Below are positions 38,166 through 44,444 of a DNA stretch of 64,000 bases, piece after piece (position 1 is the first letter of the stretch; the number at the start of each line of letters is the position of its first letter). The stretch is from Pseudoxanthomonas broegbernensis. Its GTDB lineage: Bacteria; Pseudomonadota; Gammaproteobacteria; Xanthomonadales; Xanthomonadaceae. Position numbers and translations under genes: made by a program. A model generated the notes under the pieces. It saw only the letters and a list, made by a program, of their open reading frames with translations, was not told the DNA's origin and made no database searches. Location of the stretch: positions 558,001 to 622,000 of the forward strand of contig NZ_JACHGU010000001.1 in NCBI RefSeq assembly GCF_014202435.1, written 5' to 3'.

Positions 38166-38344
38166 GCCACCGCCGCTACTTCCTTCGAGGCCGGCGCGCG
38201 CGCCGGCGATCCTTCGATGGGACGATGAAGTGGACGCCGGTTTCCCGACGCGGCACGCCGCCGGCTGACTACGGCCGCTGCGGGCCTCATCGGGCCGGTG
38301 GCGTCGCCTACAATGCCATGGCCCCCTCCTTGCGCCGACCGCCG

Positions 38345-39472
38345 ATGAGCGACGTGCTTGACCTGGCGTGCGAGCTGATCGCGCGTGCCTCCGTGACGCC
38401 CGACGACGCGGGCTGCCAGGCGCTGGTCGCCGCGCGGCTGGAACGTGCCGGCTTCGCCTGCGAGCACCTGCGCCATGGCCAGGTGCACAACCTCTGGGCC
38501 ACCCACGGTGCCGGCGCGCCGGTACTGGTGCTGCTGGGCCACACCGACGTGGTGCCGCCGGGGCCGCGCGCGGACTGGACCAGCGACCCCTTCGCCCCCG
38601 AGGTCCGCGACGGCGTGCTGTACGGCCGCGGCGCGGCCGACATGAAGTCGGGCGTGGCCGCGTTCGTGGTGGCCGCCGAGCGCTTCGCCGCCGCCTATCC
38701 CCGGCATGGCGGCACCCTGGCGCTGCTGCTGACTTCCGACGAGGAAGGCGACGCGATCGAGGGCGTGCGCAAGGTCGCCGACACCTTCCGCGAGCGCGGC
38801 CAGCGCATCGACTGGTGCATCACCGGCGAGCCGTCCTCCACCGCCAGGCTGGGCGACCTGCTGCGCGTGGGCCGCCGCGGCAGCCTCTCCGGCACGCTGA
38901 CGGTCAGGGGCGTGCAAGGCCACGTGGCCTATCCGCACAAGGCGCGCAACCCCATCCACCAGGCCGCGCCCGCGTTGGCCGAGCTGGCGGGGCGGGTCTG
39001 GGACGAGGGCTACGAGAGCTTCCCGCCCACCAGCCTGCAGATCAGCAACATCCACGCCGGCACCGGCGCGGGCAACGTCATCCCCGGCGAGCTGCAGGTG
39101 CTGTTCAACCTGCGCTACAACCCGAACTGGAACGCCGAAGGGCTGGAAGCGGAGATCGCCGCCCTGCTGGACCGGCACGGGCTGGAATACGGCCTGCGCT
39201 GGCACCGCAGCGGCGAGCCCTTCTACACCCCCGAAGGCCGCTTGCGCGCGGTCGCGCGGGACGTGCTGGGCCGGTTCGCCGGCGCGCCCCCGGAAGAAAG
39301 CACCGGCGGCGGCACCTCCGACGCGCGCTTCATCGCGCCGCTGGGCGCGCAGTGCATCGAGGTCGGGCCGGTCAACGCCAGCATCCACCAGGTCGACGAG
39401 CACGTACGCGTGGACGATCTGCGGGCACTGCCCGACCTCTATTTCCAGTTGATCGCCGAACTGCTGGCCTGA
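38345..39472 (+). CDS. dapE: Succinyl-diaminopimelate desuccinylase
   Basis: 375 residues, normal for DapE, the zinc amidohydrolase that frees LL-DAP. Seen: [14 protein letters not shown] (His and Asp ligands), [17 protein letters not shown] (bridging Asp), [16 protein letters not shown] (catalytic Glu and ligand), [21 protein letters not shown] in the dimerisation domain, and the closing [17 protein letters not shown]. The start [19 protein letters not shown] matches the family. The propeller-GGDEF gene begins 2 bp after its stop. Confidence 0.95.
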
Positions 39473-39474
39473 GC

Positions 39475-42450
39475 ATGCGCTCCCCGGGCGCCACCTCCAG
39501 CCGCCGGGCGCCCGGCCCGGGAGCCCGCGGCCACGGCGGGGGCCGCTGGCGTCGCCTGCCATGGGCGCTGTTCGGGCTGTGGCTGGCGCTGCAGGCGCAT
39601 CCGGCCTTCCCGCAAGCGCATGGCCTGCCCCTGATGCGCCATTTCGCCGCTGGCGATCTCCCGGCCGCGCCTAGCTATTCCGACGTCGTGGTCGATGCGC
39701 AGGGCACGCTCTATGCCGGCAGCAAGGAGGGCGTGATGGTGCTGCGCAGCGGCACCTGGGAGCTGTTCGAGCTGCCGCGCAAGGCGGCGGTGTTCTCGCT
39801 GCTGATGGCCACGGACGGCAGGCTCTACGTGGGCGGTCCCGGCGTGCTGGGCGAACTGCACCGGGAGGACGACGGCAGCCTGCGTTTCGAGGACCTGCTG
39901 GCACGCTTCTCGGGCGGCGGCCAGGCACCGCCGGCCGGCGAATTCTACGGGCTCGTCGAGACCGCGCGCGGGGTGTACTTCAGGGACGCGGCCACCCTGT
40001 TCCTGCTCGAGCGCGGCGGCGGCGCATGGCGCCATCCCCTGCCGCGCGGGCTGGGACAGCGGTTCTTCGCCGTCGGCGACGATGCCCTGTATGGCCGCAT
40101 CGACGGCATCGGCCTGTGCCGGATCGAGGATGGCGTGCCCGTTGCGGTGCCGGGCGCGGAGGCCTTCGTGCGGTCGCGCATCACCGGCATCTGGCCGCAT
40201 GCCGATGGTCTGCTGATCGCTTCCGACGAGGGCTTCCACCTGGGCGATGCCCACGGCGTGCGTCGGCTGTCCACGGACGCCGACGCCGCTTTCGCCGCGC
40301 ACACGCCGTATTCCAGTCTCCGCCTGGCCGATGGCAGCCTGGCGTTCGGCGGCTATGACGGCACCTTGATGCGGTTTTCGCCGGACCTGCGCCTGGTCGA
40401 TCGTTTCGTGCCGGCGCCGGGCGGGCTCGACGGATTCGCCATGGACCGCGAAGGCGGGCTGTGGACCGTGGGCGAGGCCGGCCTGACCCGCCTGCGCCTG
40501 CCTTCGCCCTGGACGGTGTACGACCGCCGCCACGGCCTGGAGAACCGCCTCTTCGACAGCGCCTGGTACGACGGTGCGTTGTGGGTGGCCACCCTGGGCG
40601 TGCTTCGCGCCGAACCCGCCCGGCAGGGCGGCGCGCCGCGCTTCGCGCCGCAACCGTGGACCGATACCGAGCTGGAGGCCTTCGCCCTGGAGGGGACCGC
40701 CGCCGGCCTGCTGATCGGCGACCGGCTCGGCCTGATGGTGCTCGACCCCGGGGCGGACAGGCCGCGCCGGTTGCTCGGCCCGCAGCGCTACGCGGGAATC
40801 CACACCCTGGTGCGCTCGGCTTCCGGTCCGGAGCAGGTGCTGGCGCTGGGCGGACGGGAGGCGGCGTGGCTGGTGCTGCGCGAAGGGCGCTGGCAGGTGG
40901 GCGCCCGGTGGGAGCCGCTGATCGGCGAACCCAGCGGCCTGCACTGGACCGCGCCGGAAGAGGTGTGGATCGGCGACGCGCGCGGCGGCGCGCACCGCTG
41001 GCGCTTCGACCCGGCCACGGGAGAGCTGCGCGAGCGCCGCCATTTCGGCCCCGCCCAGGGCCTGGCGGCCGACCCGGAACTGGGCACGCACCTGTTCCGG
41101 ATGGAGGGTGTGCTCTACGCGGTATCGGGCGCCCGCGTGCAACGCCTCGAAGGCGAGCGCTTCGTCGCCGCCGAACTGCCGGTACTGCCCGGCCTGCGGC
41201 GGCCGTGGGAACTGGAAAGCGCCGATACCGCGATCGGCAGCTTCGCCTGGACCTCGCGCCAGCTCTGGCGGCGCCGCGCCACCGAGGGGGAGTTCCGCCT
41301 GCTGCACGTGAGCGCGAGCCGGGTGCCCGGCTATGCCGCGCTCAAGCTGCAGGGCGACGGCCAACTGCGCCTGGTCGCCCGCGACAGCCTGCTGCAGTTC
41401 GACCCGGGCATCGAGGACCTGCCGCCACCGCCTCTGCTGGCGCGGCTGGACCGGATCCGGCTGCATCCGCCGGACCGCGCGTCTTCGCTGCTGCCGCTTG
41501 CACCGGGGCAGGTGCAGGTCCTGCCGCCCGGGTCCGGGCTGGGCCTGCGCTTCGGCCTGGCGACGATGGAGCCGGACGTCGAGTTCCGCTTCCGCATGCC
41601 CGGCTACAACGACGCGTGGTCGGGCTGGGACGACAACCGCGAGCTGGGCTACCGCCGGCTGCCGCCGGGCGACTACACGTTCCAGTTGCAGGCCCGCATC
41701 CGCGGCGGGCGCGAGGCCGAGCCGCTGCACTACCGGCTGCGGGTGGCGCCTTTCTGGTACGAGCGCGGCTGGGTGCGGGCGCTGTTCTGGATCGCCGGGC
41801 TGCTGGCGGTCGTGCTTGCGGCATGGCTGCGCAACCGCCGCACCAACGCGCGCAACCGCGAGCTGGAGCGCAAGATCGCCGAGCGCACCATGGAACTGGA
41901 AGCGGCCAACCGCCGGCTCACCGAACTGGCCATCGTCGACGGGCTGACCGGCATCGCCAACCGCCACGCGATGGAGCGCGCGCTGGAACGCGGATGGCAG
42001 CGCTGCCGCGAGCGCGGCGAGCCGCTGGCGGTGGTGATGTCGGACGTGGACCGCTTCAAGGAATTCAACGACAGCCACGGCCACCGGGCCGGCGACGAGC
42101 AGTTGCGGCGCGTGGCACGGGTCTTCGATGCCGAAGTGGTCGGCATCGACGAGGTCGCCGCGCGCTACGGCGGCGAGGAATTCGTGCTGATCCTGCCCGG
42201 CCTGGCGCTGGAAGCGGCGATGGCGCGGGCCGAGCGGGTGCGGCGGCGGGTGGAACGGGTCACCGCCGAGGCCGGCCTGCCGAGCAGCATCAGCCTGGGC
42301 GTGGCGGTGACGGTGCCGGTGGCGGGCATCGACCCGGCGATGCTGATGCATTGCGCCGACCAGGCGCTGTACCGGGCCAAGCGCAATGGCCGCAACCGGG
42401 TCCAGGCGGCCAGCGACGAGGACATGTCCGCCCTGTCGGGTGCCCCCTGA
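39475..42450 (+). CDS. Exported beta-propeller / Y_Y_Y sensor with GGDEF domain
   Basis: 991 residues. An N-terminal hydrophobic segment (~30-48) acts as signal or anchor. Next come ~640 residues of two-component-regulator-type propeller repeats, such as GTLYAGSKEGVMVLRSGTWE and GLWTVGEAGLTRL, then a Y_Y_Y-like beta domain (~680-750, WSGWDDNRELGYRRLPPGDY). One membrane helix (~760-783), a coiled stretch, and a C-terminal GGDEF domain follow, with VDGLTGIANRHAMERAL, MSDVDRFKEFNDSHGHRAGD and [12 protein letters not shown]. The active site looks intact, so it should make cyclic di-GMP in response to a periplasmic signal. Starting 2 bp after dapE it is probably co-transcribed with it. Confidence 0.88.
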   Translation: MRSPGATSSRRAPGPGARGHGGGRWRRLPWALFGLWLALQAHPAFPQAHGLPLMRHFAAGDLPAAPSYSDVVVDAQGTLYAGSKEGVMVLRSGTWELFELPRKAAVFSLLMATDGRLYVGGPGVLGELHREDDGSLRFEDLLARFSGGGQAPPAGEFYGLVETARGVYFRDAATLFLLERGGGAWRHPLPRGLGQRFFAVGDDALYGRIDGIGLCRIEDGVPVAVPGAEAFVRSRITGIWPHADGLLIASDEGFHLGDAHGVRRLSTDADAAFAAHTPYSSLRLADGSLAFGGYDGTLMRFSPDLRLVDRFVPAPGGLDGFAMDREGGLWTVGEAGLTRLRLPSPWTVYDRRHGLENRLFDSAWYDGALWVATLGVLRAEPARQGGAPRFAPQPWTDTELEAFALEGTAAGLLIGDRLGLMVLDPGADRPRRLLGPQRYAGIHTLVRSASGPEQVLALGGREAAWLVLREGRWQVGARWEPLIGEPSGLHWTAPEEVWIGDARGGAHRWRFDPATGELRERRHFGPAQGLAADPELGTHLFRMEGVLYAVSGARVQRLEGERFVAAELPVLPGLRRPWELESADTAIGSFAWTSRQLWRRRATEGEFRLLHVSASRVPGYAALKLQGDGQLRLVARDSLLQFDPGIEDLPPPPLLARLDRIRLHPPDRASSLLPLAPGQVQVLPPGSGLGLRFGLATMEPDVEFRFRMPGYNDAWSGWDDNRELGYRRLPPGDYTFQLQARIRGGREAEPLHYRLRVAPFWYERGWVRALFWIAGLLAVVLAAWLRNRRTNARNRELERKIAERTMELEAANRRLTELAIVDGLTGIANRHAMERALERGWQRCRERGEPLAVVMSDVDRFKEFNDSHGHRAGDEQLRRVARVFDAEVVGIDEVAARYGGEEFVLILPGLALEAAMARAERVRRRVERVTAEAGLPSSISLGVAVTVPVAGIDPAMLMHCADQALYRAKRNGRNRVQAASDEDMSALSGAP

Positions 42451-42494
42451 GCCGGCCGGGGCGGCCCGTAGGGGGTCGATTGCGGCCGCAACTG

Positions 42495-42524
42495 TTGCGC
42501 GGCGGCGCCGGAATGCGGTAGTTT
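42495..42524 (+). promoter_or_regulatory. Promoter of the asnB leader
   Basis: TTGCGC (42495-42500), an 18-nt spacer and TAGTTT (42519-42524) make a plausible promoter. Transcription would start about 42530-42532, i.e. at or one base before the ATG of the leader peptide, so the leader is probably translated from a leaderless mRNA; there is indeed no Shine-Dalgarno sequence in front of that ATG. Confidence 0.6.
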
Positions 42525-42531
42525 CGCCCGT

Positions 42532-42630
42532 ATGCCGTTTTCCTGCGCCAGCGCCGCCAACGTCAACAACCGCAACAATCTGCGCGCGAACAATCGTGCG
42601 CGGCCGATGCGGGTGCGCGACCAGGGATAA
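42532..42630 (+). CDS. Asn-rich leader peptide of asnB
   Basis: 32 codons, ATG 42532 to TAA 42628-42630. Seven of the twelve residues at positions 10-21 are Asn (N-V-N-N-R-N-N-L-R-A-N-N), using both AAC and AAT. Asn is not otherwise clustered like this in neighbouring genes. The gene lies directly after the promoter and before a terminator-antiterminator pair and asnB, the exact layout of the trp, his and ilv leaders. Its role would be to let ribosome stalling at Asn codons report on Asn-tRNA charging. Too short for routine gene calls. Confidence 0.85.
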   Translation: MPFSCASAANVNNRNNLRANNRARPMRVRDQG

Positions 42631-42668
42631 AGCAGGAAGCCCGGTAGTCGAACAACCCGCATCGGCCG
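42601..42668 (+). promoter_or_regulatory. Antiterminator pairing of the asnB attenuator
   Basis: cggccgatgcgggt (42601-42614, inside the leader peptide, codons 24-28) is perfectly complementary over 14 bp to acccgcatcggccg (42655-42668). That second strand contains the whole 5' arm and loop of the terminator. The two structures are therefore mutually exclusive, and the antiterminator is the longer. Ribosomes stalled on Asn codons 10-16 would leave 42601-42614 free; ribosomes that reach the stop codon would interfere with it. Confidence 0.8.
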
Positions 42669-42682
42669 ATGCGGGTTTTTTT
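42654..42682 (+). terminator. Terminator hairpin of the asnB attenuator
   Basis: aacccgcatc (42654-42663), loop ggcc, gatgcgggtt (42668-42677) form a perfect 10-bp stem followed by five more T residues: an intrinsic terminator located 53 nt before the asnB start codon and in front of it, not behind a gene. It shares its 5' arm with the antiterminator. Confidence 0.9.
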
Positions 42683-42734
42683 GTGCCCCGGCACCGGCCG
42701 CCCCGACAACAAACCACCACCCAGGAGTCCCTCC

Positions 42735-44444
42735 ATGTGTTCGATCTTCGGCATCTTCGGCCTGCAGCCGGGCGATGACCTGCAGGCGCTGCGCCGGCAG
42801 TCGCTGGACCTGTCGCAGCGGCAGCGCCACCGCGGCCCGGACTGGAGCGGCGTGTACGTCGACGACGGCGCGATCCTGGTGCACGAACGCCTGGCCATCG
42901 TCGACCCGGCCGGGGGCTCGCAGCCGCTGGTTTCCGAGGACGGCCAACTGGCGCTGGCGGTCAACGGCGAGATCTACAACCACAAGCGCCTGAAGGGCGA
43001 GCTGCAGCGGCCGTATGCGTTCCGCACCGAGTCGGACTGCGAGGCCATCAACGCCCTCTACCGGGAGAGCGATGCCGACGGGAGCGGTCCGGCCGCCTTC
43101 CTCAACCGGCTCAACGGCATCTTCGCCTTCGCCCTGTGGGACAAGGCCAAGGGCCGGGCGATCGTCGCCCGCGACCCGATCGGCGTGGTGCCGCTGTACT
43201 GGGGCCACGACAAGGAAGGCCGCCTGCGCGTGGCCTCGGAGATGAAGGCGCTGGTGGACGACTGCGCCGACGTGGCCCAGTTCCCGCCGGGCCACTGGTA
43301 CGACACCGCCACCGACCAGTTGACGAAGTACTACGAGCGTCCATGGCGCGACTACGCCGCGGTGGAAGGGGTGGAGGTCCCGCCGACCGAGCTGCGCGAG
43401 GCGTTCGAGGCGGCCGTGCACCGCCAGTTGATGACCGACGTGCCCTACGGCGTGCTGCTGTCCGGTGGCCTGGATTCCTCGCTGGTGGCGGCGGTGGCCG
43501 CGCGCTACGCCCGCCACCGCATCGAGGAGGACGACAAGGCCGAGGCCTGGTGGCCGCGGCTGCACTCCTTCGCCATCGGCCTGAAGGGCTCGCCGGACCT
43601 GGCCGCCGCGCAGATCGCGGCCGATGCGCTGGGCACCGTGCACCACGGCTTCGAGTACACCTTCGAGGAAGGCCTGGACGCGGTGCCGGAGGTGATCCGC
43701 CACGTCGAGACCTACGACGTCACCACCATCCGCGCCTCCACCCCGATGTTCCTGCTGGCGCGCCGGATCAAGGCCATGGGCGTGAAGATGGTGCTGTCCG
43801 GCGAGGGCAGCGACGAGATCTTCGGCGGCTACCTGTACTTCCACAAGGCGCCCAACGCGCGCGAGTTCCACGAGGAGCTGATCCGCAAGCTCGACGCGCT
43901 CAACAACTACGACTGCCTGCGCGCCAACAAGTCGATGATGGCCTGGGGCGTGGAACCGCGCGTGCCGTTCCTGGACCGCGAGTTCCTCGACGTGGCCATG
44001 CGCATGGACGCCAAGTTCAAGATGGTCGACAAGAACCGCAGCGACGCCCAGCGGATGGAGAAGGGCGTGCTGCGCCAGGCCTTCGACGGCTACCTGCCCG
44101 AGTCGATCCTGTGGCGGCAGAAGGAGCAGTTCAGCGACGGCGTGGGCTACGGCTGGATCGACGGGCTCAAGGCGCACGCCGAGGCGCAGGTGAGCGACCG
44201 CGAGCTGGCCGCGGCCGACAAGCGCTTCCCGGTGAACCCGCCGCAGACCAAGGAAGCCTACTTCTACCGCAGCGTGTTCGAGCGCTTCTATCCCACCCCG
44301 GCCGCGGCCGAGACGGTGCCGGGCGGCAAGTCGATCGCCTGCTCCTCGCCGGCGGCGATCGCCTGGGATGCCAGCTTCGCCAGCATGGCCGATCCCTCCG
44401 GCCGCGCGGTGGCCGGCGTGCACGAGCAGGCACTGGCGGGCTGA
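42735..44444 (+). CDS. asnB: Asparagine synthase B (glutamine-hydrolysing)
   Basis: 569 residues. The mature N-terminus is Cys2 (MCSIFGIFGL), the nucleophile of the Ntn glutaminase domain; RHRGPDWSG, RLAIVDPAGGSQPL and AVNGEIYNHKRLK complete it. The synthetase domain has the ATP-pyrophosphatase loop YGVLLSGGLDSSLVAAV and VLSGEGSDEIFGGYLYFHK. It converts Asp, Gln and ATP to Asn, Glu and AMP. AGGAG lies 7 nt before the ATG. It is preceded by an Asn-codon attenuator, and followed by a strong hairpin. Its position after the dap genes fits shared use of aspartate. Confidence 0.97.
   Translation: MCSIFGIFGLQPGDDLQALRRQSLDLSQRQRHRGPDWSGVYVDDGAILVHERLAIVDPAGGSQPLVSEDGQLALAVNGEIYNHKRLKGELQRPYAFRTESDCEAINALYRESDADGSGPAAFLNRLNGIFAFALWDKAKGRAIVARDPIGVVPLYWGHDKEGRLRVASEMKALVDDCADVAQFPPGHWYDTATDQLTKYYERPWRDYAAVEGVEVPPTELREAFEAAVHRQLMTDVPYGVLLSGGLDSSLVAAVAARYARHRIEEDDKAEAWWPRLHSFAIGLKGSPDLAAAQIAADALGTVHHGFEYTFEEGLDAVPEVIRHVETYDVTTIRASTPMFLLARRIKAMGVKMVLSGEGSDEIFGGYLYFHKAPNAREFHEELIRKLDALNNYDCLRANKSMMAWGVEPRVPFLDREFLDVAMRMDAKFKMVDKNRSDAQRMEKGVLRQAFDGYLPESILWRQKEQFSDGVGYGWIDGLKAHAEAQVSDRELAAADKRFPVNPPQTKEAYFYRSVFERFYPTPAAAETVPGGKSIACSSPAAIAWDASFASMADPSGRAVAGVHEQALAG

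Follow-up and report, generated by a model that had tools for sequence, protein, structure and literature searches.

The asparagine synthase gene asnB of Pseudoxanthomonas broegbernensis is very probably controlled by a ribosome-mediated transcription attenuator that reads the level of charged tRNA(Asn), judging by the sequence and the modelled folds of a 64,000-nucleotide stretch of contig NZ_JACHGU010000001.1 (hereafter, the window). The anatomy of the locus, its conservation, the correlated change of its parts among relatives, and the folding models of the window argue for this reading, from which we infer that the leader is translated, that its mRNA has a leaderless 5′ end, and that the signal answered is asparagine. 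In the proposed mechanism, RNA polymerase would start at, or adjoining, the ATG of a short leader rich in asparagine (Asn), and a ribosome would translate this leader immediately. When Asn-tRNA is scarce, the ribosome would stall on the Asn codons and leave strand 2 (42601-42614) free to pair with strand 3 (42655-42668), in such a way that no terminator would form and asnB would be transcribed. When Asn-tRNA is plentiful, the ribosome would pass strand 2 as far as the stop codon, covering part of it; strand 3 would then pair with strand 4, and transcription would stop before asnB. The elements of the locus, in nucleotides (nt) of the window, are as follows.

42488 to 42498, no strand assigned: palindrome GCAACTGTTGC overlapping the −35 element, a possible operator
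42495 to 42500, forward strand: −35 element, TTGCGC
42519 to 42524, forward strand: −10-like element, TAGTTT, 7 nt before the leader ATG
42532 to 42630, forward strand: leader peptide open reading frame (ORF) of 32 codons, seven of them Asn, with translation predicted from the sequence
42559 to 42594, forward strand: stretch holding the seven putatively regulatory Asn codons (five AAC, two AAT)
42582 to 42601, forward strand: local hairpin whose loop contains or adjoins the last two Asn codons, a candidate strand 1:2 or pause hairpin
42601 to 42614, forward strand: strand 2, the predicted 5′ arm of the antiterminator, within the leader ORF (RPMR codons)
42655 to 42668, forward strand: strand 3, the predicted 3′ arm of the antiterminator, overlapping the 5′ arm of the terminator
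42654 to 42682, forward strand: predicted intrinsic terminator, a stem-loop (42654-42677) and a T tract
42723 to 42727, forward strand: putative Shine-Dalgarno (SD) sequence of asnB, AGGAG
42735 to 44444, forward strand: asnB, a glutamine-hydrolysing asparagine synthase of 569 amino acids, by an equivalog match to NF006949

The sequence-only reading from which the analysis started had given correct coordinates throughout, including those of the leader ORF, the terminator, both 14-nt strands and the start of asnB; it had also called the attenuator complete, which holds for the anatomy, whereas switching by asparagine is a prediction. The leader encodes MPFSCASAANVNNRNNLRANNRARPMRVRDQG, in which codons 10, 12, 13, 15, 16, 20 and 21 specify Asn. 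Strands 2 and 3 are 100% complementary over their 14 nt, and their duplex is predicted at −29.4 kcal/mol, against a mean of −15.0 for codon shuffles of the leader. The terminator consists of 10 pairs and a 4-nt loop, followed by the T tract, although the hairpin by itself is weak evidence, since a scan of a 601-base stretch found one terminator where 0.4 (standard deviation 0.8) were expected in shuffles; nor is the folding of the 216-nt stretch as a whole unusually stable (z −1.29). The local hairpin within the leader has 8 base pairs and appears in both the minimum-energy and the centroid folds. As for the gene behind the leader, its product matches the family model of asparagine synthase B (NF006949) with 861.7 bits against a cut-off of 499, so that by this model it makes the very amino acid that the leader encodes.

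The conservation of the leader was followed in the best-scoring 80 of 586 relatives from a protein search, a sample in which close relatives are therefore over-represented (the nearest AsnB relative, from Pseudoxanthomonas, has 92% identity). Two loci, L035 and L078, were left out of the leader counts because their sequence ends too near asnB, and of the 78 loci judged, 76 carry an Asn-rich leader ORF upstream of asnB, as does the window locus; it ends 82-280 nt before the gene, and the counts out of 77 given here refer to these 76 loci plus that of the window. Of the frames of up to 420 nt, the one richest in Asn was taken as the leader, and its start codon was chosen by promoter score, choices that favour the pattern and for which background ORFs and ATGs were run as controls. 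At least five Asn per 14 codons are found in 66 of the 77 leaders as against 2 of 6967 other short ORFs from the same loci, and at least six in 58 leaders as against none of the 6967; for the remaining 11 leaders the figure is 3 or 4, which 78 background ORFs reach as well. The two loci without an Asn-rich leader, L045 and L055, come from records labelled as a Holophagales metagenome-assembled genome and a Rhodococcus contig, respectively, and their AsnB proteins are 80% and 74% identical to that of the window; these labels are odd for the sequence, and the records may be mislabelled or the DNA may have been transferred.

A hairpin with a T-rich tail is present in 77/77 loci by a loose scan and in 75/77 by a stricter one, which finds none in L061 and L069. 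For the duplex of strands 2 and 3, 57 of the 77 loci do better than 95% of codon shuffles, and 37 do better than 99%. The leader tail mimics the terminator's 3′ arm, and from one lineage to another the two change together: RPMR is found with terminators of the CCCGCATCGG type, PRAGD with GCCCGC, PQAGD with GCCTGC, and WRARA with GGCCCGCC. Counting pairs on MAFFT alignments was given up: two groups, together 66 of the 77 loci, were aligned separately, and in one of the two alignments the sub-groups had their terminators out of register, so that register-anchored counts were used, with 69 loci in total entering the test of slid registers. In the second group, comprising 34 loci of the Lysobacter/Rhodanobacteraceae type, the partner of the terminator core was fixed at stop-9, the commonest of the fitted values, and 79% of the pairs are Watson-Crick, compared with 21-60% in twelve slid registers (1-6 nt each way); one pair column is C-G in 28 loci, T-A in 6 and mismatched in none, the six T-A loci being Lysobacter-like and perhaps the result of one event. 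In the first group, where the register was fitted and 8 of 43 loci with irregular registers were left out (L021, L037, L040, L048, L061, L066, L069 and L081), the other 35 give 90% against at most 50% for the slides. Permuting strand 2 among loci, a procedure that takes no account of their relatedness, gave a mean of 0.748 and a maximum of 0.784 for the second group (2000 permutations; observed, 0.794), and a mean of 0.879 and a maximum of 0.896 for the first (observed, 0.904). The comparison of asnB upstream regions that the sequence-only reading had proposed as its own check thus lends it support, as the Asn-rich leader is conserved, the pairing exceeds codon shuffles in 57/77 loci and slid registers in the 69 loci entered, the leader tail and the terminator change together, and the fold of the window locus is predicted to switch.

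This predicted switch was modelled with a ribosome taken to cover 18 nt before and 12 nt after the first base of the stop codon, a footprint that is our own assumption. When the RNA downstream of the ribosome is folded to equilibrium, the probability of the terminator at the window locus stays at 0.00-0.03 whichever of the seven Asn codons the ribosome is stalled on, and rises to 1.00 with the ribosome at the stop codon, a position at which the terminator is predicted to form in 77/77 loci. When the RNA is folded as it would be before strand 4 has appeared, strand 3 pairs with the leader at the median stall (probability of at least 0.5) in all 77 loci, and this probability is below 0.5 at the stop in 65; for the window, the antiterminator has a probability of 1.00 with the ribosome on each of the stall positions and of 0.27 once it has reached the stop. 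Strand 3-leader pairing often arises by chance in GC-rich RNA, and in the chance control for this model the observed mean was 0.960 against 0.589 for codon shuffles, with 53 of the 77 loci at or under 0.05. That the outcome depends on the position of the ribosome is, then, a result of the folding models.

As to the supply of asparagine, an asparaginyl-tRNA synthetase (AsnRS) was found in the genome of the window, and GatB and AsnA were not found there; the level of Asn-tRNA should therefore be set by the free asparagine that AsnRS charges. That genome has a single full-length close match, AsnB itself. Two further proteins, those of L002 and L003, pass TIGR01536, a broad model of asparagine synthases (458.1 and 476.2 bits, cut-off 267.1), and fail NF006949, and the idea of AsnB as the sole route to asparagine was dropped for that reason. 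These asparagine-synthase-like proteins (L002:73-2013 and L003:1114-3402) also resemble the XrtA/PEP-CTERM amidotransferase model, below its cut-off. Among 299 genomes of the order, AsnB (E ≤ 1e-100) is found in 216 and a GatB match in 58, with an overlap of 0.

A number of observations weigh against the attenuator. The loci share ancestry, so that their counts are not independent, and in 20 of the 77 the duplex stays below the 95% level of the codon shuffles. At equilibrium, the terminator yields at the median stall in only 20/77 loci, and in 33 of the 34 Lysobacter/Rhodanobacteraceae-type loci it is still favoured under the stalled ribosome, which means that a kinetic antiterminator must be assumed for them; in other words, if the switch works there, it would be kinetic in much of the group, and equilibrium folding was rejected as a universal proof of it. 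In the model without strand 4, strand 3 keeps its upstream pairing in 12/77 loci with the ribosome at the stop. In the window itself, the stop codon lies 14 nt past strand 2, and hence a ribosome at the stop would cover just the end of that strand; moreover, the ribosome-free folds are mixed, with the antiterminator in the minimum-energy fold and a terminator probability of 0.86 in a shorter stretch. Finally, the two further TIGR01536 proteins leave room for a source of asparagine other than AsnB, a point that lowered our confidence very slightly.

Transcription is predicted to start at, or adjoining, the A of the leader ATG, because TAGTTT sits 7 nt before it. The promoter at 42495-42524, as the sequence-only reading had delimited it, fails a strict sigma-70 consensus scan, which gave no match in the window, but its layout (TTGC-18-TAGTTT-7-ATG) is backed by conservation: TTGC lies 17-19 nt upstream of the −10-like site in 74/77 leaders, and in 71/77 that site is 6 or 7 nt upstream of the ATG, the spacing by which the 5′ end is provisionally placed. 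Of the leader ATGs, 75 of 77 have a promoter score of at least 8.5, compared with 99 of the 8399 other ATGs, the leader starts having been picked by this same score. No SD-like 4-mer precedes the leader in 64 of the 77 loci, and one precedes asnB in 65. Attenuation might nonetheless hold with an mRNA that starts further upstream and has a short 5′ untranslated region; the lack of a strict sigma-70 match would fit this, as would an SD-like 4-mer within or beside the −10-like site in 13/77 loci (for example, AGGA in CAGGAT), which makes these loci ambiguous, and the distance of 25 nt from the −10-like site to the ATG in L128, a candidate from another family of the order. It appears unlikely, however, not only because most leaders have no such 4-mer, but also because TTGC, a spacer of usually 17-18 nt, the −10-like hexamer and 6-7 nt to the ATG recur together with three different kinds of −10-like site.

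The leader ORF and the hairpin could also serve some other signal, with the terminator controlling asnB by way of a riboswitch, a T-box or a protein that binds the RNA, the richness in Asn being incidental. The terminator dominates the equilibrium folds at the median stall in 57/77 loci, and in 19/77 a possible operator overlaps the promoter, both of which would suit such a signal; yet the Asn richness is far above background, the bias in codon use described below is specific to Asn, and Rfam covariance models give no match at gathering score in the 64 kb. The permissive matches lie far below the cut-off, with no T-box among the 12 weak ones in 42400-42800, and of the known amino-acid leaders (Leu, His, Trp, Thr and others) none reaches the gathering score, with only a weak Leu_leader of 13.2 bits where 50 are needed, all of which makes another signal highly improbable. 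Somewhat less remote, though still very unlikely, is that attenuation is constitutive, or that a small RNA is at work, with the terminated leader RNA or its peptide acting in trans and the control of asnB in cis being secondary. The terminated transcript is predicted to be leaderless, trans action is reported for trpL of Sinorhizobium meliloti (PMC7298713), and the tail of the peptide partly recurs (RPMR in 23/77 leaders, NRARPMR in 19/77), but this recurrence is explained by strand 2, since the tail differs wherever the terminator differs, and the downstream gene makes the encoded amino acid itself.

The palindrome that might act as an operator has the form GCAACnGTTGC and is found 42-44 nt ahead of the leader ATG in the 19 loci mentioned. 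It lies across the −35 region and may be the operator of a transcription factor. Palindromes of the TTTC..GAAA type are seen at −51 to −54 in 5 other loci.

The choice of Asn codons differs between the leader and the gene. AAT makes up 46% of the Asn codons in the leaders and 12% in asnB, whereas the share of T in the other NNY codons is 18.5% in the leaders and 15.9% in asnB (75/77 loci pooled, without L052 and L076, whose start codons are doubtful); locus by locus, the AAT share is higher in the leader in 73/77. If AAT is decoded more slowly by the GUU anticodon, this preference would sharpen the response. A tgt homologue is present, which makes queuosine in tRNA(Asn) possible, and one could conceive of a lineage-wide class of asparagine-specific, leaderless attenuators, their leaders enriched in the wobble-read codon AAU, that report both the charging of tRNA(Asn) and the quality of its decoding, such as the queuosine state of the GUU anticodon; as a whole, we consider this distinctly unlikely.

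Further genomes were judged by eye, each on its best frame and best hairpin over 420 nt. The leader is found in all 8 regions taken from family f166 and from g178 and g180, two more genera of the window's own family; of 32 regions from families f168, f169, f171, f173 and f174 of the order, it is not seen in 31. Outside the order, an Asn-rich ORF backed by a terminator is found in 0 of 21 upstream regions, although one of them, L109, does show 5 Asn in 14 codons but no terminator. From its distribution in these sequences, the attenuator looks like an invention of the lineage of Xanthomonadaceae and Rhodanobacteraceae. The single candidate in the other families of the order, L128 (f171), carries MFAIYNTINTTNNRLLRSAGSF and, behind it, a GC-rich terminator in the last 260 bases before asnB, and given its long distance from the −10-like site to the ATG it would not be leaderless; it may be of independent origin or a relic.

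Ribosome-mediated attenuators are known from the amino-acid operons of Escherichia coli, with its trp, his, leu, ilv, thr and phe leaders. The asparagine element resembles these in its short leader with codons for the product amino acid, its mutually exclusive antiterminator and terminator, and the downstream gene for the same amino acid; it differs in that it involves asparagine and asnB, has strand 2 in the last codons of the leader (with the fitted partner of the terminator core at stop-9 in 45/77 loci) and is predicted to be leaderless. The asparagine genes of Firmicutes are controlled by T-boxes, which sense the charging of tRNA(Asn) by direct binding of the tRNA and use no leader peptide. 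Charging of tRNA(Asn) would be sensed in both cases, but the present element has a leader peptide and no T-box match. No description of an asparagine attenuator was found among the open-access papers listed, at the level of their titles and abstract openings, and the main text of a genome-wide survey of premature terminators mentions neither asnB nor asparagine (PMC2965389).

The sequence-only reading had regarded a leaderless attenuator leader as unusual, but two precedents are on record. In S. meliloti, the trpL RNA is reported to begin with the ATG of the leader ORF and its attenuation to be ribosome-dependent (PMC7298713); this leaderless start and the dependence on the ribosome (both predicted, in our case) are shared, while its Trp codons, its target trpE(G) and its place in the Alphaproteobacteria differ. 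The ilvBNC leader of Corynebacterium glutamicum is likewise discussed as a leaderless mRNA with terminator and antiterminator hairpins (PMC11857589), and would be alike in both respects, whereas its branched-chain amino acids and its actinobacterial host differ. The mechanism is of a known kind and leaderless attenuators have precedents, and what is new here, within the literature covered, is the amino acid, asparagine, and the lineage. If confirmed, asparagine would join the amino acids that are read by leader-peptide attenuation, and the control of asnB in Xanthomonadaceae and Rhodanobacteraceae would have a simple explanation. The 77 natural variants, in which the leader tail, the terminator and the stop position have evolved together, offer a test set for kinetic versus equilibrium models of attenuation; the same series would be useful for studying initiation on leaderless leaders, and the loci could seed a new family of the Rfam type.

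In the genome, the exact pattern of the leader tail occurs only at asnB; of three other sites with 2-3 mismatches, one is the asnB terminator itself. Upstream of asnS, the 4353 bases of L147 hold no short ORF with at least 4 Asn per 14 codons. The region before asnB in the window (38225-42450) contains what we take to be a dapE-like gene (38225-39472) and then a long ORF, presumably with a GGDEF-like domain at its end. In L038, the end of dapE lies close upstream of the leader, and the same applies to L019, judging by a similar out-of-frame peptide.
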